From NCBI GenBank assembly GCA_029067085.1, contig JAIEFE010000018.1, positions 236,474 to 300,473 on the forward strand: a stretch of 64,000 nt of DNA, in the 5' to 3' direction. Positions within the stretch are counted from its first letter, which is position 1; every line of letters begins with the position of its first letter. Below are positions 1,337 to 31,627 of this stretch, piece by piece. The notes under the pieces were generated by a model, which searched no databases, was not told the DNA's origin, and worked only from the letters and a program-made list of their open reading frames with translations. The stretch is from Lachnospiraceae bacterium (GTDB taxonomy: Bacteria > Bacillota > Clostridia > Lachnospirales > Lachnospiraceae). The position numbers and the translations under genes were made by a program.

Positions 1337-1609
1337 TTACTCAATATCCGGTTCCAAAAGTGCATGTTCATAGCTTTCCAGAATGACTTTCTGGATCATA
1401 TCCCGCGTCTCAGAATTGATCGGGTGGGCGATATCGCGATATTCGCCGTCCGACGCCTTCTTGCTGGGCATCGCTATAAACAGACCCTTTTCACCTTCAA
1501 TTACTTTAATGTCATGAACTACGAATTCATCGTCGATCGTGATTGAGACGATTGCCTTCATCTTGCTGTCTTGAGTCATTTTTCGTACGCGGACATCAGT
1601 AATTTTCAT
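1337..1609 (-). CDS. spoVG: SpoVG, RNA/DNA-binding regulator
   Basis: A 90-residue protein that matches SpoVG over its full length: [10 protein letters not shown] at the start, [27 protein letters not shown] and [11 protein letters not shown]. SpoVG is a small conserved regulator that affects sporulation, septation and virulence traits in Firmicutes and binds nucleic acid. The reading frame is open further upstream, but ATG 1609 is chosen because AAGGAGG lies 9 bp before it and the family begins MxITDVR. It lies 210 bp downstream of glgD on the same strand and probably has its own promoter in that gap. It ends at the shared terminator. Confidence 0.95.
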
Positions 1610-1818
1610 GAAGCTCAGCCTCCTTATCATATGATACCGGCCGGAAATTTGCCGGTTTTCACAAGCTTTCCTCACAAGTCATACTCATCAAGCCACGTAG
1701 CTTGTAATAAACGTTCCGTTAATTACATCCCCTTATACAGACAACCGATTCCCCCTTGACAATCACTCCATCACCATTTATCATCCGCACTGTCGGAAAT
1801 CGCGCTCCTGTTCACGGT

Positions 1819-2937
1819 TCAGAGCGTGTATCTGTCGTTGTGCTCCACGACGATTTCGATACCATCCTCCCCCTTGTGGTAAGAATTTGCGCGGATCGTA
1901 CCCCGGCTTTCTACAATGCAGTTCTCTATGTGCGTGTTATCCCCAATATACACGTCATTCAGGATGATAGAGTTTTTGATGTAACAGTTGCTTCCGATGT
2001 AGGTCTCTTTGAAGATCACGGAATCCTCCACCGTTCCGTTGACAATACAGCCGCTGGATATCAGGCTGTTTTTGATGCTGGCGCCTACATTATACTTAGC
2101 GGGCGGTAAATCGTCCACCTTGGAATACACATCGGGATACTGCTTGAAGAAATAATCCCGAATTTCCGGCTTCAGGAAATCCATGTTAGTCTTAAAGTAA
2201 TCCTCGACTGTAGCAATATTACTCCAGTATTCCTTCGTCTTATAGCCGTAGATCCTCTTCAGGTTCTTCTGGCGGATCAGGATGTCCTTTACGAAATCGT
2301 AACGGTCTTCCTCCCGACATTTCTCGATCAGCTCGATCAGCAGTCTTCGTCTGACGACATAGATACCGCAGGAAACGGTGTTGGACTTTGCCACCACAGG
2401 TTTCTCCTCAAATTCCTCGATGCGGCTGTCCTCATTCATCTTGATCGTGCCGTAGCGCTCCACATTGGCGCTTGGCTCCATGTCCTTGCAGACTACGGTG
2501 ATATCGGCTTTCTTATCGATATGATACTCCAAAACCTTATTGTAATCCATCTTGTAGACACAGTCGCCGGAAACGATCACCACATAAGGTTCATGGCTGT
2601 TCTTTAAGAAAGACAGATTCTGTGCAATCGCATCTGCCGTGCCGCGGTACCAGGCATTGCTCTCAGCCGTTACCGCAGGGGTCTCCACAAACAGGCCGCC
2701 CTGCTTACGTCCGAAATCCCACCATTTTGAAGAACTTAAATGCTCGTTCAGGCTGCCGGCGTTATACTGCGTAAACACGGCCACCTTGTTGATATGAGAA
2801 TTCGTCATATTACTGAGCGCAAAGTCGATGCTCCTGTAGCTTCCCGCAATGGGCATCGCGCAGACCGCACGTTTCTGGGTCAACTGCCTGATCCTGTGAT
2901 TATTACCACCCGCTAAGATAATTCCGATTGCTCTCAC
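1819..2937 (-). CDS. glgD: Glucose-1-phosphate adenylyltransferase subunit GlgD
   Basis: A 372-residue nucleotidyltransferase-like subunit that pairs with GlgC to make ADP-glucose for glycogen synthesis. The N-terminus has [10 protein letters not shown], a diverged form of the pyrophosphorylase loop (GlgC has GGQGSRL), then [14 protein letters not shown]. The C-terminal ~90 residues form a left-handed beta-helix type region ([21 protein letters not shown]). In Firmicutes GlgD has little activity alone and boosts GlgC. The GTG start overlaps the glgC stop as GTGA, indicating translational coupling. Length and both domains are normal for the family. Confidence 0.95.
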
Positions 2938-4208
2938 GATTTATCACCTGCCTTAATCAAAGTTTTACCGCTGGGAAGATTACCATTATCATAGTCCTCC
3001 GGCGTTGTCACACCAAAGACCACGGAATTTTTCCCTATGGTCGTCCCTTTCGGAATCACGCTCTTCTCGCCTACCGTCACCAGCTCGTGGTCATAAATAT
3101 GAGGATCCGTCTCGTTGGGAACAGCCTCGCCGACACCCAGCTTTACATTGTCCTCAATCACCACGTTCTCTGCGACGACCGCCTTGTAGAGCTCACAGTT
3201 GCTGCAGATCTTCGTCCCGTTCATAACGATGGAATCCCGCACCACCGTACCGGCTCCTATGGTCACGCCACAACCGATCACGGAATTGTATACTTGTCCG
3301 TAGATCTCAGAACCCTCACCGATGATACTTCTCTCCACCACGCTGTCAGGCGACAGATACTGCGGCGGCAGGATCTCGCTCTTCGTGTAAATCTTCCAGT
3401 ACTCCTCGTAAAGGTTAAACTCCGGCACAAGGTCGATCAGCTCCATGTTCGCTTCCCAGAAGGAGTGCAGCGTCCCTACGTCCTTCCAGTAACCGTTGAA
3501 CTCATAGGCGTAGAGCGGTGCGCCCTTGCCGTGGCAATAGGGGATCAGATGCTTTCCGAAATCAAGTCCCGGCTGCTCCTTATTTGCGAGAAGCGCTTCC
3601 TTGAGAGTTTTCCAGTTAAAGATGTAAATACCCATCGACGCAAGATTGCTGCGGGGATTTTCAGGCTTTTCCTCAAAATCCGTGATCCTGCGGTTTTCGT
3701 CAGTAATCATGATACCGAAGCGCTTTGCCTCTTCCATGGGTACAGGCATGACCGCGATAGTTACTTCCGCACCGTTCTGCTTGTGAAAATCAAGCATCAC
3801 TTCGTAATCCATCTTATAGATATGATCCCCGGAAAGGATCAGAACATATTCCGGATTAAAGCTTTCCATGTAGTCTATGTTCTGGTAGATCGCATTGGCC
3901 GTACCGGTATACCATTCACTGTTCGCACTCTTCTCATAGGGGGGGAGCACCGTAACGCCGCCGATGTTCCTGTCCAGATCCCACGGAATACCAATACCGA
4001 TATGGGTATTCAACCGAAGTGGTTGATACTGGGTGAGCACACCCACCGTATCAACGCCGGAGTTGATACAGTTGCTGAGTGGGAAGTCGATGATCCGATA
4101 CTTACTGCCAAAGGATACTGCCGGCTTGGCCACCTTCGACGTGAGCACCCCCAGTCTGCTTCCCTGACCGCCTGCTAAAAGCATGGCAATCATTTCTTTT
4201 TTTACCAT
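2934..4208 (-). CDS. glgC: Glucose-1-phosphate adenylyltransferase, catalytic subunit GlgC
   Basis: A 424-residue enzyme that forms ADP-glucose from ATP and glucose 1-phosphate, the committed step of bacterial glycogen synthesis. The signature loop LAGGQGSRL is at residues 11-19, followed by [19 protein letters not shown]; the region GDHIYKMDY and a C-terminal beta-helix domain are present. ATG 4208 is preferred over the upstream GTG 4217, because the AGGGGTG ribosome site would overlap that GTG. It is the first gene of the glgC-glgD operon and is divergent from murC. Glycogen storage fits a gut fermenter. Confidence 0.97.
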
Positions 4209-4471: not shown

Positions 4472-5851
4472 ATGTACCAGATCAATTTTAACGATCCGAT
4501 ATCCGTCTATTTTATCGGGATCGGCGGCATCAGCATGAGCGGCCTGGCCGAGATTCTTCTGACGGAGGGCTTTACGATATCCGGTTCCGACCGCGCCCCC
4601 TCCGATCTGACACGCATGCTGGAGACAAAGGGCGCTCACGTTTTTTACGGGCAGCGCGAGGAAAACATTTCAAAAGACATTGACCTTGCGGTCTACACCG
4701 CCGCCATTAAGCCTGACAACCCGGAGCTCATCGCCGCGAAGAATCTTGGCATTCCCACCATGACCAGAGCGGAGCTTCTGGGACAGATGATGAAAAATTA
4801 TAAAATACCCATTGCCGTGAGCGGCACCCACGGCAAGACCACCACTACCTCCATGATCTCTCAGATCCTTCTGACCGCAAAGACAGATCCCACTCTGTCT
4901 ATCGGCGGAATCTACCGCCCCATCGGCGGCAACATCAGGGTGGGCGGCTCCGATCTCTTTGTGACGGAGGCCTGCGAGTACACCAACAGCTTTTTAAGCT
5001 TTTTCCCTAAGATCGGGATCATTCTTAATATAGAAGAAGACCACTTGGATTTCTTCAAGGATCTCTCTGATATCCGCAATTCCTTTCACCGCTTTGCAAA
5101 ACTTTTACCCTCTGACGGCGCACTCATCATAAACGGAGATATCAAAGGCGTCGAAGAGATTACCGAAGGGCTCTCCTGTCAAGTAATCACCTACGGCTCC
5201 TCGCCGGAATTTACCTACAGCGCGTCCGAAGTAAGCTTCAGCGAAGACGGCTGTCCGTCCTTCAGGCTGCTGGAAAAGGGAGAACCCGCGAGAGCCTTTT
5301 CCCTGAATGTACATGGAGAACACAATATCGCAAATGCCCTGGCCTCCATCGCACTGGCAAAATATCTGCACATCCCTGATGAAATGACTGCTGCAGGACT
5401 TTCTGCTTTTGAGGGGACAAACAGACGTTTTGAGTATAAGGGGCAGGCAGACGGCGTTAATATCATTGACGATTACGCCCACCATCCCACCGAAATCCGC
5501 GCAACCCTGAACGCTGCGGCAAAGTATCCCCACAAAAAGCTCTGGTGCGTCTTTCAGCCTCACACCTACACCCGAACCAAAGCTTTTTTAGAGGAATTCG
5601 CCGCCGCCCTCTCTCTCGCCGATGAGATTGTCCTGGCAGATATCTACGCTGCGAGAGAAAAGGATACGCTTGGTGTCAGTGCCAAAACCCTGCAGGAGAA
5701 AATCATATCCCTTGGACACTCCTGCCACTACTTCCCTTCCTTTGAGGAGATTGAAAAATTTCTTCTGAAAAATTGCACAAAGGATGATCTGTTGATAACT
5801 ATGGGTGCAGGCGACGTTGTAAAAATCGGTGAAACTTTGTTACAGAAATAA
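4472..5851 (+). CDS. murC: UDP-N-acetylmuramate--L-alanine ligase MurC
   Basis: A 459-residue Mur ligase that adds the first L-alanine to UDP-N-acetylmuramic acid in the cytoplasmic part of peptidoglycan synthesis, using ATP. The N-terminal Rossmann-type domain has GIGGISMSG (residues 16-24). The central ligase P-loop is GTHGKTTTT starting at residue 118, and the C-terminal domain has DDYAHHPTEI and FQPHTYTRT. The length is typical. AAGGGAG precedes the ATG. It stands alone rather than in a dcw cluster, divergent from glgC. A hairpin with DnaA-box-like arms follows its stop codon. Confidence 0.97.
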   Translation: MYQINFNDPISVYFIGIGGISMSGLAEILLTEGFTISGSDRAPSDLTRMLETKGAHVFYGQREENISKDIDLAVYTAAIKPDNPELIAAKNLGIPTMTRAELLGQMMKNYKIPIAVSGTHGKTTTTSMISQILLTAKTDPTLSIGGIYRPIGGNIRVGGSDLFVTEACEYTNSFLSFFPKIGIILNIEEDHLDFFKDLSDIRNSFHRFAKLLPSDGALIINGDIKGVEEITEGLSCQVITYGSSPEFTYSASEVSFSEDGCPSFRLLEKGEPARAFSLNVHGEHNIANALASIALAKYLHIPDEMTAAGLSAFEGTNRRFEYKGQADGVNIIDDYAHHPTEIRATLNAAAKYPHKKLWCVFQPHTYTRTKAFLEEFAAALSLADEIVLADIYAAREKDTLGVSAKTLQEKIISLGHSCHYFPSFEEIEKFLLKNCTKDDLLITMGAGDVVKIGETLLQK

Positions 5852-27068: not shown

Positions 27069-27833
27069 ATGAAAATAGAAAAAGTAAATGAGCAGCAGAT
27101 TCGCTGCACCCTCACCAGAGAGGATCTTGTGAACAGAGAATTAAAGATCAGCGAACTCGCCTATGGCACGGAGAAGGCAAAAAACCTCTTCCGCGACCTG
27201 ATGCAGCAGGCTGCCTACGAGTGCGGCTTTGAAGCGGAAGATATTCCTCTGATGATCGAGGCAGTTCCCTTAAACGCCGAATGCATCGTGCTGATCGTCA
27301 CCAAAGTGGAGGATCCGGAAGAGATCGACACCCGCTTTGCTAAATTCGCGCCTTCCGTCCACGACGAAGATTACGGTCTTGACACCGAGGACAACGAGGC
27401 TCTCATGGAGGCCTTCGCCGACAGTGCGGACGAAGTGCTGAATCTCCTGCGTCGGATGAACAACGGAGAGGACACTGCAGATTCGCAGCATACGGCGTCC
27501 AAAAACGGCGATGACGCCTCCCGGTCCGATAAAGATAAGGCTGTAAACCGTCTCTACTCCTTCCGCTCCCTGCGAGAGGCGTCCAGGCTGGCCCGCGTAG
27601 CCGGCACAGTCTGGGAGGGCGGTAACTCTCTCTACAAGGATGAGAGCACGGGCTCTTACCTTCTGCATCTGCATCCCGGCGAAACGGATACCGCTGCCTA
27701 CAACCGCCTGTGCCATCTCATTTCCGAGTACGCACGGCCGGAGAAGACTTCAAACGCAACCGGAGCCTATCTGGATGAGCACTGCGAACCGCTCATAAAA
27801 GACAGCGCCCTTAAGACGCTGTCACAGCTTTGA
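27069..27833 (+). CDS. MecA-family adaptor protein
   Basis: A 254-residue protein matching clostridial MecA. The N-terminal part ([40 protein letters not shown]) is the substrate-binding side. The C-terminal part ([28 protein letters not shown]) is the portion that binds ClpC. An acidic and Ser-rich linker lies at ~125-175. MecA brings substrates to ClpCP for degradation and limits competence and sporulation regulators in Bacillus; targets here are unknown. The last 23 bp overlap the convergent DUF1858 gene. Confidence 0.88.
27797..27823 (-). terminator. Terminator of the DUF1858 gene, inside the 3' end of mecA
   Basis: On the minus strand GACAGCG (27817-27823), a 9-nt loop that contains the TAA stop, and CGCTGTC (27801-27807) are followed by TTTT (27797-27800). 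The whole element lies within mecA codons on the other strand. Confidence 0.65.
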
Positions 27834-28011
27834 TCTTTGACATCAGTTCATCGGCATCCAGACCATGAACCATCGCCGCCTCCTCCAGGGTCTCCCCCTG
27901 GGCGGAGGGGCATCCAAGGCAGTGCATGCCGATTTCTAAAAGGACGGGGGCAATGTCCGGGTTTGTCCGAAGTGCCTCTCCGATCGTCATATCCTTCGTG
28001 ATATCTGCCAT
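27811..28011 (-). CDS. DUF1858 domain protein
   Basis: A 66-residue protein of the DUF1858 family: [39 protein letters not shown] with the paired CLGC cysteines, split here over the middle of the protein. The family is common in anaerobes and related domains occur fused to redox or hybrid-cluster proteins, so a thiol or metal role is suggested but unproven. Its start is preceded by AAAGGAG, and it has a strong promoter at 28048-28076. It faces away from the pfl locus and converges on mecA. Confidence 0.85.
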
Positions 28012-28148: not shown

Positions 28149-28178
28149 TTGACTGCGCTTCGACAGATAGCATATAAT
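28149..28178 (+). promoter_or_regulatory. pflB promoter
   Basis: TTGACT (28149-28154), an 18-bp spacer and TATAAT (28173-28178) lie 49 bp before the pflB ATG. Confidence 0.75.
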
Positions 28179-28227: not shown

Positions 28228-30267
28228 ATGAGACCAGAATGGAAAGATTTTGTAGGCGGCAAGTGGGACAAAGAAATCAACGTCCGCGACTTCATCCAGA
28301 GGAACTATCATCCTTATGATGGCGATGATTCCTTCCTTGCCGAGCCTACACAGAACACAAAGGATCTGTGGGCACAGGTGCTCGACCTGCAGAAGCAGGA
28401 GCGTGAGGCGGGCGGCGTCCTTGATATGGACACCAAGCTGGTATCCACCATCACTTCCCACGGCCCCGGCTATCTGGACAAGAGTAAGGAGACCATCGTA
28501 GGCTTCCAGACCGACAAGCCTTTCAAGCGCTCTTTACAGCCTTACGGCGGTATCAGAATGGCTGAGAAAGCTTGCTCCGACAACGGTTATGAAGTAGATC
28601 CCGAGATCAGCGAGTTCTTCTCAACCCACAGAAAGACACATAATGCAGGCTGCTTCGACGCATACAACGCTGAGATGAGAGCTTGCCGTTCTTCCCACAT
28701 CATCACCGGTCTTCCGGATGCTTATGGCCGCGGCCGTATCATCGGCGACTACAGACGTGTAGCTCTGTACGGTATCGACAGACTGATCGAGGATAAGCAG
28801 GAGCAGAAAGATTCCACGGGACGCGTTATGACAGACGATGTGATCCGTCTCCGCGAGGAGCTTTCCGAGCAGATGGTTGCTCTGAAGATGATGAAAGAGA
28901 TGGCTGCTTCCTACGGCTGCGACATTTCCAAGCCTGCTACCAACGTACAGGAAGCAATTCAGGCTGTTTACTTCGGTTATCTCTGCGCAGTTAAGGAGCA
29001 GAACGGTGCTGCTATGTCTCTTGGCCGTACCTCTACCTTCCTTGATGTATATGCAGAGCGCGACCTTGCAAACGGCACTTTCACAGAGAAGCAGATTCAG
29101 GAGTTTGTTGACCACTTCATTATGAAGCTTCGCTGCATCAAGTTTGCCCGCACACCTGAGTACAACCAGATCTTCGCAGGCGATCCGGTATGGGTAACAG
29201 AGTCTCTCGGCGGTGTCGGCGTTGATGGCCGTCCGATGGTTACCAAGATGAGCTTCCGTTATCTGCACACCCTTACAAACCTTGGTCCTTCTCCGGAGCC
29301 GAACCTGACCGTTCTCTGGTCTACCAGACTTCCCGAGAACTGGAAGAAGTACTGTGCTAAGATGTCCATCCAGACCTCTTCCATCCAGTACGAGAACGAC
29401 GATCTGATGAGAGTGACCCACGGCGATGACTACGGTATCGCATGCTGTGTATCCTCCATGGTTATCGGTAAGGAGATGCAGTTCTTCGGCGCACGTGCTA
29501 ACCTTGCTAAGTGCCTGCTGTACGCATTAAACGGCGGTGTTGACGAGGTAACCAAGAAACAGGTTGGTCCTAAGTATCGTCCTGTTACCGGCGACGTGCT
29601 GGATTACGACGATGTTATGGACAAATTCCTTGATATGATGGAGTGGCAGGCTGACGTGTACGTAAATACACTGAACATCATCCACTACATGCATGACAAG
29701 TACTGCTACGAGAGAGCAGAGATGGCTCTCCATGACAAGAATGTAAAGCGTTACTTCGCAACCGGTGTTGCAGGTCTCTCCATCGTGGCAGATTCCTTAT
29801 CCGCGATCAAGTACGCTAAGGTTGAGCCCATCAGAGACGAAGACGGCATCATCGTTGACTTCAAGACCACCGGTGAGTTCCCGAAATATGGTAACGACGA
29901 CGACCGCGTAGATGAGATCGCTCAGGAGATGGTTCATAAGTTCATGACCGCCATCAGAAGACACCACACCTACAGAGATGGCGTTCCTACAACTTCCATC
30001 CTTACCATTACTTCCAACGTAACCTACGGTAAGGCTACCGGTAACACCCCTGACGGACGTAAGAAAGGTCAGCCTTTCGCACCTGGTGCTAACCCGATGC
30101 ACGGACGTGATACCCACGGTGCAGTCGCTTCCCTGTCTTCCGTATCCAAGCTTCCGTTCAATGATGCACAGGATGGTATCTCCAATACCTTCACCATCAT
30201 TCCGGGCGCTCTCGGCAAAGAGGATCAGGTATTTGCAGGCGACCTTGAGGTAGATCTCTCTAAATAG
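28228..30267 (+). CDS. pflB: Pyruvate formate-lyase catalytic subunit lacking the glycyl-radical domain
   Basis: A 679-residue formate C-acetyltransferase converting pyruvate and CoA to acetyl-CoA and formate. It starts [23 protein letters not shown] after TAGGAGG. The catalytic Cys pair is C406-C407 (IACCVSS). The match to standard PflB continues to [18 protein letters not shown] and then ends DLEVDLSK, about 70-80 residues short. The missing C-terminal radical loop is encoded by the separate ORF at 30501. This looks like a true split, not a frameshift, as each part has its own start and ribosome site. Codon use is strongly biased, as in a highly expressed gene. Confidence 0.96.
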
Positions 30268-30278
30268 GAGTTGTTAGA

Positions 30279-30485
30279 ATGGATAATCAGCAGATGATTG
30301 AAGACTTTGTCAAGATGATGGATTCCGGGATGGCGCAGGGCGTCGGACACGTGAATGTAGATGTCGATGACAAGATTGACAGCTCTAAAAAAAATATTGA
30401 GACCATGGGGTGTACGGATTGTTCCCGTACCCCCCTGGCCTGCAGCGTTCCCACCCTCCATGACGGGTTGGACGACTTTAAATAA
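30279..30485 (+). CDS. Small Cys-containing protein in the split pfl locus
   Basis: A 68-residue protein between pflB and the glycyl-radical subunit, 11 bp after pflB. Its first ~35 residues (DFVKMMDSGMAQGVGHVNVDV) can be aligned by eye to the start of the radical subunit ([21 protein letters not shown]), so it may derive from a duplicated copy. It lacks the RVSGYAV radical loop. Instead it has three cysteines (C45, C48, C55) in GCTDCSRTPLAC, followed by SVPTLHDGLDDFK. A role in stability, radical quenching or metal binding is possible but unknown. Confidence 0.75.
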   Translation: MDNQQMIEDFVKMMDSGMAQGVGHVNVDVDDKIDSSKKNIETMGCTDCSRTPLACSVPTLHDGLDDFK

Positions 30486-30500
30486 GAGGAGGATAATACA

Positions 30501-30743
30501 ATGGCAGCAGCAACAGCTCAGGTAGATAACTTAGTAAACTTATTAGATGGCTATGCAACAAAGGGCGGCCATCACCTCAACGTGAACGTGCTCAACAGAG
30601 ATACCTTACTCGATGCACAGAAGCATCCCGAGAACTATCCTCAGTTGACCATCCGCGTTTCCGGCTACGCAGTGAATTTCATCAAGCTGACCCCGGAACA
30701 GCAGGCTGATGTTATCTCCCGTACGTTCCACGAGAGCGTATAA
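30501..30743 (+). CDS. Separate glycyl-radical subunit of pyruvate formate-lyase (GrcA-like)
   Basis: An 80-residue protein equal to the C-terminal domain of PflB. It has [31 protein letters not shown] with the radical glycine at G55, and the typical PFL ending [18 protein letters not shown]. The ribosome site AGAGGAGG is strong. In E. coli the related YfiD/GrcA rescues oxygen-cleaved PFL, but there PflB keeps its own loop. Here the catalytic subunit has none, so this protein should supply the radical as an obligate partner, activated by PflA. It is followed by a terminator. Confidence 0.93.
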
Positions 30744-30760: not shown

Positions 30761-30791
30761 AAAGCCAGCCGGATATCCGGCTGGTTTTTTT
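30761..30791 (+). terminator. Intrinsic terminator after the pfl radical subunit
   Basis: CCAGCCGG (30765-30772), loop ATAT and CCGGCTGG (30777-30784) are followed by seven T and preceded by A residues. Confidence 0.92.
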
Positions 30792-30865: not shown

Positions 30866-31627
30866 ATGCAAGGCAGAATACATTCATTAGAGAGCTTTGG
30901 AACAGTTGACGGCCCCGGAACCAGATTCGTGGTCTTCGTGCAAGGCTGCCCCATGCGGTGCGCCTACTGCCACAATCCCGACACCTGGGACATGAACGGC
31001 GGCACACTGATGGAGCCGGAATATATTTTTGAACAATATAAGCGAAACGAAGCATTTTATCACGGCGGCGGCATCACCGTCACGGGCGGTGAACCTCTGA
31101 TGCAGGTCGATTTTCTGATCGATCTCTTTACCATCGCCAAGAAAAATAATGTGCATACCTGTATCGACTCTTCGGGCATCGCCTACAAAAAAAACGCAAA
31201 CCCGGAATGGCTTGCGAAATTAGATCATTTAATGGAATTGACCGATCTGGTCATGCTGGATATCAAGCACATTGATCCGGAAAAGCACAAGGATCTTACT
31301 TCCCAGCCTAACGACGGCATTCTCGCCTTTGCGGAGTATCTGGACGAAAAGCACGTGGATATATGGATCCGTCATGTCATCGTACCGGGACTGACCGACG
31401 ATGACGAATACCTCTACAAACTTGGCTACTTCATCGGCGGCCTCTCAAACCTGAAGGCCCTGGACGCCCTCCCCTATCACACCATGGGCGAATCCAAGTA
31501 CGAAAAGCTTGGCATGGAATACAAGCTAGCAGGCGTTCCCGCCATGGAGAAAGATAAGCTGGTAGAAAAGAAAAAGGTGATTCTCGACGGCGTTCGAAAA
31601 CGCAGAGAGGAGTTGGGACGAATCTGA
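30866..31627 (+). CDS. pflA: Pyruvate formate-lyase-activating enzyme
   Basis: A 253-residue radical SAM enzyme that abstracts a hydrogen from the radical glycine of PFL. The cluster motif is the CxxxCxxC of CPMRCAYCHNP near residues 29-36. HGGGITVTGGEPLMQVDFL is the SAM-binding GGE block, and VMLDIKHIDPEKH and WIRHVIVPGLTDDD are conserved family segments. AGAGAGGCGG precedes the ATG. It follows the split PFL genes after a terminator, so its natural substrate should be the separate radical subunit. Confidence 0.96.
   Translation: MQGRIHSLESFGTVDGPGTRFVVFVQGCPMRCAYCHNPDTWDMNGGTLMEPEYIFEQYKRNEAFYHGGGITVTGGEPLMQVDFLIDLFTIAKKNNVHTCIDSSGIAYKKNANPEWLAKLDHLMELTDLVMLDIKHIDPEKHKDLTSQPNDGILAFAEYLDEKHVDIWIRHVIVPGLTDDDEYLYKLGYFIGGLSNLKALDALPYHTMGESKYEKLGMEYKLAGVPAMEKDKLVEKKKVILDGVRKRREELGRI

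Follow-up and report, generated by a model that had tools for sequence, protein, structure and literature searches.

A pyruvate formate-lyase divided between two chains in Lachnospiraceae, with a small cysteine-tailed protein encoded between them

In a 64,000-nucleotide stretch of Lachnospiraceae DNA (the window), pyruvate formate-lyase (PFL) is encoded as two separate chains, a catalytic core and an 80-residue radical subunit, and a small conserved protein, MID, is encoded between them. PFL produces formate and acetyl-CoA in many gut anaerobes, and oxygen destroys the enzyme at its radical glycine. Judging from gene content across related genomes, PFL in this organism is very probably an obligate two-chain enzyme. 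The fuller statement, in which MID also docks on this two-chain PFL and serves as a dithiol arm or cap in a broad sense of those words, is one that we regard as possible, if not quite probable.

Results

The catalytic core and the radical domain of PFL are encoded separately

The operon lies on the plus strand of the window and has the following features, numbered from the first base of the window.

28149..28178 (+): candidate sigma-70-like promoter ahead of the core gene, by consensus match only (11 of 12 bases)
28228..30267 (+): PFL catalytic core, 679 aa, without the radical domain and with an acidic C-terminal tail (TIGR01255 positions 2-666 of 744)
29443..29448 (+): codons of the active-site cysteine pair C406-C407 (E. 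coli C418-C419), placed by alignment to PFL structures
30279..30485 (+): MID, 68 aa, with a radical-domain-like N-terminal half and a cysteine tail
30402..30482 (+): MID tail TMGCTDCSRTPLACSVPTLHDGLDDFK, with invariant C48 (30420-30422) and C55 (30441-30443)
30501..30743 (+): radical subunit GrcA3, 80 aa, RVSGYAV, with radical glycine G55 (codon 30663-30665)
about 30767..30786 (+): terminator-like hairpin followed by a T run, downstream of the radical-subunit gene
30866..31627 (+): PFL-activating enzyme PflA, 253 aa, radical SAM (TIGR02493, 290.7 bits, cut-off 231.75)

Promoter-like matches numbered 9 against 4.2 expected in shuffles, and terminator-like matches 6 against 3.7. A DUF1858 protein of 66 aa (PF08984) is encoded divergently directly upstream of the operon, at 27811-28011 on the minus strand, and a MecA-family protein (PF05389) is encoded upstream at 27069-27833 on the plus strand.

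The core matches the TIGR01255 model with 1088.4 bits (cut-off 994.2) and keeps its active-site cysteines within the motif GIACCVSS. Its match stops at model position 666, and the radical glycine loop lies on the 80-residue chain, which matches the last part of the same model. The initial annotation had described a core that stops before the radical domain, with RVSGYAV and G55 on a separate reading frame after a gap of 233 bp, and this description held. It was also right that the core has no radical loop, but the chain continues 12 residues past the end given there, and this 12-residue tail is common to many split cores. Its suspicion that such small genes might already be annotated as GrcA was borne out by a match of 160.8 bits (cut-off 158) to NCBIfam NF038360, "autonomous glycyl radical cofactor GrcA3". 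Most of the gap is filled by the reading frame of MID, with AGGAG directly 5' of it (by eye). The proposal that the two chains together equal one PFL was sound as to the split but missed a third part, which most such systems possess in the form of MID or of a cysteine-bearing extension of the core.

We identified 80 loci with the radical chain. Among them, 57 are split loci and every one has a MID reading frame; 53 of these have a core reading frame, with MID between core and radical chain by coordinates, and four are cut by a contig end. The other 23 loci have a radical gene and no core within reach (20 with at least 2.4 kb of upstream sequence and three with less than 200 bases). The relative frames of core, MID and GrcA3 vary from locus to locus and include 0, 1 and 2, which speaks against a sequencing mistake common to all loci, against programmed frameshifting and against read-through of a stop codon. 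For GrcA3 the median dN/dS is 0.05 (278 unsaturated of 400 pairs, 54 loci), and base variability is 0.33 at third codon positions as opposed to 0.03-0.08 at the others. For MID the median dN/dS is 0.14, from 73 unsaturated pairs of 400 (54 loci), the other 327 having been left out as saturated or failed, and variability by codon position is 0.19/0.09/0.47. Because third positions are the most variable and dN/dS is low, both MID and the radical chain evolve as proteins.

Genomes with the split enzyme have no detectable intact PflB

The genome of origin, which is 83.6% complete, has a single PF02901 match, the split core, and no intact PFL. Besides a single GrcA3 it carries another radical domain, within a 728-aa frame that is presumably the anaerobic ribonucleotide reductase. 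A draw of 196 genomes from the order yielded at least 41, including our own, with a stand-alone GrcA3 and a truncated core; genomes with more divergent radical chains may add to this number. Two of the 41 (G163 and G107) have their core in pieces on separate contigs. One genome (G161) was excluded, its locus L152 consisting of a 70-aa radical reading frame at a contig end with no core. None of the 41 split genomes, of which 40 are at least 90% complete, showed an intact PflB in a TIGR01255 search; with the cores and GrcA3 pieces set aside, the best other match scored 163.5 bits. Given this negative result, PFL activity in the split species should depend on the small chain, as the initial annotation had argued when it called this chain a necessity and not a spare.

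Two ways of explaining the split away can be weighed against these data. GrcA3 could be a mere spare part while an intact PflB elsewhere does the work. E. coli GrcA behaves in this way (PMC8683613), and the incompleteness of our own assembly leaves some room for a missed gene; we nevertheless consider this very improbable, since it would require an intact PflB to have escaped detection in all 41 genomes and the core itself has no radical domain. A frameshift, an assembly error or a decaying gene could also mimic a split. We found nothing at the window locus to suggest this, although one relative (L229) has a broken core as assembled. Against it, the split recurs in dozens of separate assemblies with scattered frames, the genes have their own ribosome sites (by eye) and both MID and GrcA3 are under purifying selection, which together make this explanation barely credible. 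In the broken relative, the core occupies 1458-3582 of the locus as two pieces of 287 and 416 aa.

MID combines a radical-domain-like half with an invariant pair of cysteines

MID has no significant match in Pfam or NCBIfam: nothing in Pfam reached E 1, and NF038360 matched weakly with an E value of 0.043. When its N-terminal half was compared with the GrcA3 profile (hhalign), the two aligned with a probability of 87 and an E value of 3.9e-6 over just 29 columns; these we interpret as the opening helix and strand of the radical domain (PF01228). The RVxG radical glycine motif is absent from MID, and a cysteine tail stands in place of the glycine loop. This tail has the form C-x(5,6)-C-x2-P-T-L, within a wider pattern like D/E-C...A-C-x2-P-T-L-x2-G-x-D. 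All of 56 distinct MIDs have both cysteines, and so do all 81 of a larger set, which was chosen by profile and by the letters PT and not by cysteine; the residues PTL..G.D are as well conserved. Spacing in the larger set is C-x6-C in 73 proteins and C-x5-C in eight. The window MID reads CxxC-x6-C, and this CxxC is shared by 62 of the 81, so that two of the three cysteines are invariant. By eye, the MID segment LACSVPTL resembles the active-site loop GIACCVSSM of the window core.

The tail motif is rare outside these proteins. Across 3851 distinct reading frames of at least 60 aa from the collected loci, C-x(3,6)-A-C-x2-P-[TN] occurs near the C-terminus in 109, comprising 104 MIDs and 5 PFL cores; this control predates five loci added later from a second class draw. 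The possibility that MID is a chance reading frame is ruled out by its distribution, by purifying selection and by the rarity of the motif. Within the coding sequence, a GC-rich hairpin at 30411-30440 showed a weak signal, with a mean z of -1.0 over 81 sequences against synonymous shuffles. Searches of solved structures gave no match to MID at E 1 and only three chance-like matches to its tail, near E 5. AlphaFold models of PFL with MID read through (mean pLDDT 56) and of PFL, MID and GrcA3 together (49) were too poor to inform docking.

MID is linked to the split enzyme and is seldom found across the phylum

Within the order, MID was found in 34 of the 41 split genomes listed and in none of 105 other genomes with a PFL over the cut-off (the 144 such genomes less 39 split ones). 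A match in one further genome (G219) was to its GrcA3 and was not counted. The association is strong (Fisher 1e-26), with kinship ignored in this figure. All 34 MIDs lie on the same contig as the core and radical chain and between the two. In the genus of our organism, 35 of 37 genomes encode MID, our own included, and in a draw of 398 genomes across the phylum it appeared in two (E 1e-6), both from the source family, Lachnospiraceae. The draw around G690 comprised three genomes of its order only. One genome (G139) has a second MID-GrcA3 pair beside a contig end (L221, contig C97), where a second core may also lie.

We placed the cores on a quick maximum-likelihood tree, rooted at the midpoint and supported by SH-aLRT values only. 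A first tree used 73 of 120 rows after removal of near-copies, and a second added nine of the ten split loci from the first class draw, L229 being omitted for its broken core; five split loci from the second class draw are in neither. Split cores fall in one clade with an SH-aLRT of 99 (37 split and two nested intact sequences in the first tree, 45 and two in the second). Because the two intact PFLs (L150 in G231 and L151 in G151) are nested inside the split clade, they read as re-fusions of the radical domain, and neither genome encodes MID. One split locus (L232) does not group with this clade and seems to represent an additional, independent split; another locus in no tree (L237) shares its family code.

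Other lineages carry the cysteine tail at the end of the core

Seven split genomes of the order have no MID: one with the tail fused to the core (G219), five of genus g82, and one with no tail (G195, locus L145). In the first of these, at locus L149, the core ends in EECGNQACNIPNIMESIDNE and is close kin to the core of L153, which has a separate MID. Scored against the MID-tail profile, this core end reached 11.5 bits, compared with 3.8 for the best shuffle among 147 reported of 200, and it outscored every other core end compared. The cysteine tails on the g82 cores, in which the motif is incomplete, were also considered as homologues of the MID tail, and this was not supported, their profile score falling below most shuffles.

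Two overlapping draws from the class, of 293 and 392 genomes, in which only radical chains at E 1e-42 or better were taken, gave 10 and then five more split loci outside the order. Of these 15, six carry the full tail at the end of the core (L224, ending in DCDNGACSSPTLFEGLDTDEK, and L225, L228, L229, L233 and L235), two have a separate MID (L231, and L223, where it is downstream of the radical gene), three have a core tail with cysteines but an incomplete motif (L226, L227 and L234) and four have none (L230, L232, L236 and L237). The tail therefore stands at the end of a PFL core in seven loci outside the MID arrangement, L149 among them, and in six of these cores it reads C-x2-G-A-C. Mapped onto the tree, the fused tail needs three changes, two of them forced by well-supported branches. 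The fused form drops the radical-domain-like half and keeps the tail. Some split loci have neither form, so a split PFL does not always require the tail.

Stand-alone radical subunits often follow a Crp/Fnr-family gene

Of the 27 loci with no core reading frame (L025-L104), four are cut split loci, three have less than 200 bases upstream and 20 are stand-alone GrcA3 genes. A Crp/Fnr-family gene lies within 400 bases upstream of 11 of the 20 stand-alone genes (L042, L058, L061, L065, L071, L073, L077, L085, L088, L095 and L102), compared with none of the 53 split loci; three of the regulators were confirmed by Pfam. At L042 and L077 the regulator gene sits after a groEL-like gene (by eye), and L088 carries two stand-alone copies, at 2409-2636 and 5541-5768, about 3 kb apart on one contig. 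The arrangement fits a regulated supply of replacement radical subunits. Since 11 of the 20 directly follow such a regulator, the earlier suggestion that a detachable subunit could be replaced after oxygen damage is plausible.

Discussion

A possible role for MID at the vacated radical site

The tail occurs either on the core or on a radical-domain-like half, and it is absent upon re-fusion, so the core's radical site is where it would be expected to work. We infer from this pattern that the site in question is the one vacated by the radical domain, and that MID probably acts on the core. PFL would work only as an assembly of the core, with its cysteine pair, and GrcA3. PflA would activate G55 of GrcA3, which would then carry the radical to the core. 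The glycyl radical of PFL passes to the second cysteine of the active-site pair, and E. coli GrcA can carry the radical for a PflB that is unable to hold one itself (PMC12338860), which makes an arrangement in trans chemically feasible. MID would dock in the place of the radical subunit by means of its putative version of the first helix and strand of the radical domain and would present a flexible tail with two cysteines, which may protect or re-reduce C406-C407 while the radical subunit is absent, cleaved by oxygen or being exchanged. The sequences themselves show the split, the conservation and linkage of MID and the tail on other cores; the docking, the redox chemistry and the purpose in this scheme are proposals.

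The reading that we favor, as a tentative proposal drawn by analogy, is that the tail serves the active-site cysteines as a dithiol arm or cap. It is favored by the fused tails, whose cysteine spacing is that of the shuttle cysteines of E. coli NrdA. Moreover, the point at which the fused tails depart from the core roughly matches the exit point of the radical domain in an intact PFL, and their cysteines could therefore reach the barrel that holds C406-C407, if this inferred geometry is right. Against the proposal, some split enzymes have no tail, and the likeness to NrdA extends over few residues, was spotted in hindsight and might reflect convergence or coincidence.

The main alternative is that MID is an adaptor for activation or docking, replacing the stretch that corresponds to residues 696-733 of the cleaved E. 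coli enzyme, which assists the binding and activation of a separate radical domain. According to PMC8683613, efficient activation of the two-chain enzyme of E. coli requires that stretch and the N-terminus of YfiD; the core and GrcA3 here lack both segments, and the N-terminal half of MID resembles the start of the 696-733 region. Against an adaptor, it is the docking half that the fused cores drop while keeping the tail, which thus looks like the working part; there are also split loci with neither docking half nor tail, and tailless split enzymes count against an adaptor as they do against an arm or cap. We judge the adaptor unlikely. The cysteines might instead bind a metal, as the CxxC-x6-C of the window MID would allow, or they might quench the glycyl radical before oxygen cleaves the chain, MID acting as a deactivase or hydrogen-atom donor, since a thiol brought to the radical site could in principle do so. 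However, only two of the three cysteines are invariant, and a spacing that ranges from 4 to 6 across separate and fused forms is unlike most metal sites; we consider metal binding or quenching distinctly unlikely.

Returning to the dithiol arm or cap, its broadest form would be that a glycyl radical enzyme whose radical subunit can be exchanged is maintained by a dedicated dithiol arm, which is supplied in cis by the core or in trans by a protein that is a decoy of the radical domain. We hold this generalization to be rather doubtful; if true, it would mean that a radical enzyme has its own device for redox maintenance, comparable to the tail of ribonucleotide reductase but independent of it. 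The presence of MID and of the fused tails suggests that a detachable radical domain brings a need of its own, and two cysteines are a small, clean target for experiment. A naturally split enzyme also means that the departure of the radical domain from the barrel, its activation and its return become directly testable with separate proteins.

Relation to known systems

Two PDB chains named "Formate acetyltransferase", 38la_A (687 residues) and 38lb_A (739), align to the core. Neither is among the 34 matches of the radical-subunit search or among the best 50 Foldseek rows (structures up to 8 Apr 2026). They may be natural split cores; being PFL-like and not found by the radical-domain search, they suggest that others may already study such enzymes. 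The 38lb tail past the core contains ECDMC. A full-text literature search, which most subscription papers lie outside, found no paper on a natural split PFL, GrcA3 or MID. Annotators are thus already partly aware of the split and of GrcA3, and we found no description of MID or of the core tail.

The system resembles PflB (TIGR01255; E. coli 2pfl/1h16) in its homologous core over model positions 2-666, its ACC pair and its adjoining PflA. Unlike PflB, it has the radical domain on another chain and adds a small protein or a tail. Like GrcA3, E. coli GrcA/YfiD carries the RVSGYAV radical loop on a small chain. YfiD, however, mends an originally intact PflB that oxygen has cleaved (PMC8683613), whereas no intact PflB was found here, and the 80-aa GrcA3 has no counterpart of the disordered 60-residue N-terminus of YfiD. 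The cysteine tail finds its closest likeness in the C-terminal C-x4-C of E. coli NrdA (CESGAC, C754/C759), which matches the C-x2-G-A-C of the six fused cores. In NrdA these shuttle cysteines re-reduce a buried active-site disulfide (PMC11143221); the window has its tail on a protein of its own, with C-x6-C spacing, and the likeness is one of form rather than of demonstrated sequence homology. Aminoacyl radical enzymes (PMC11528403) are also recently recognized departures from the standard glycyl radical enzyme. Those enzymes alter the radical residue, whereas here the glycine is kept and the domain that bears it is detached.
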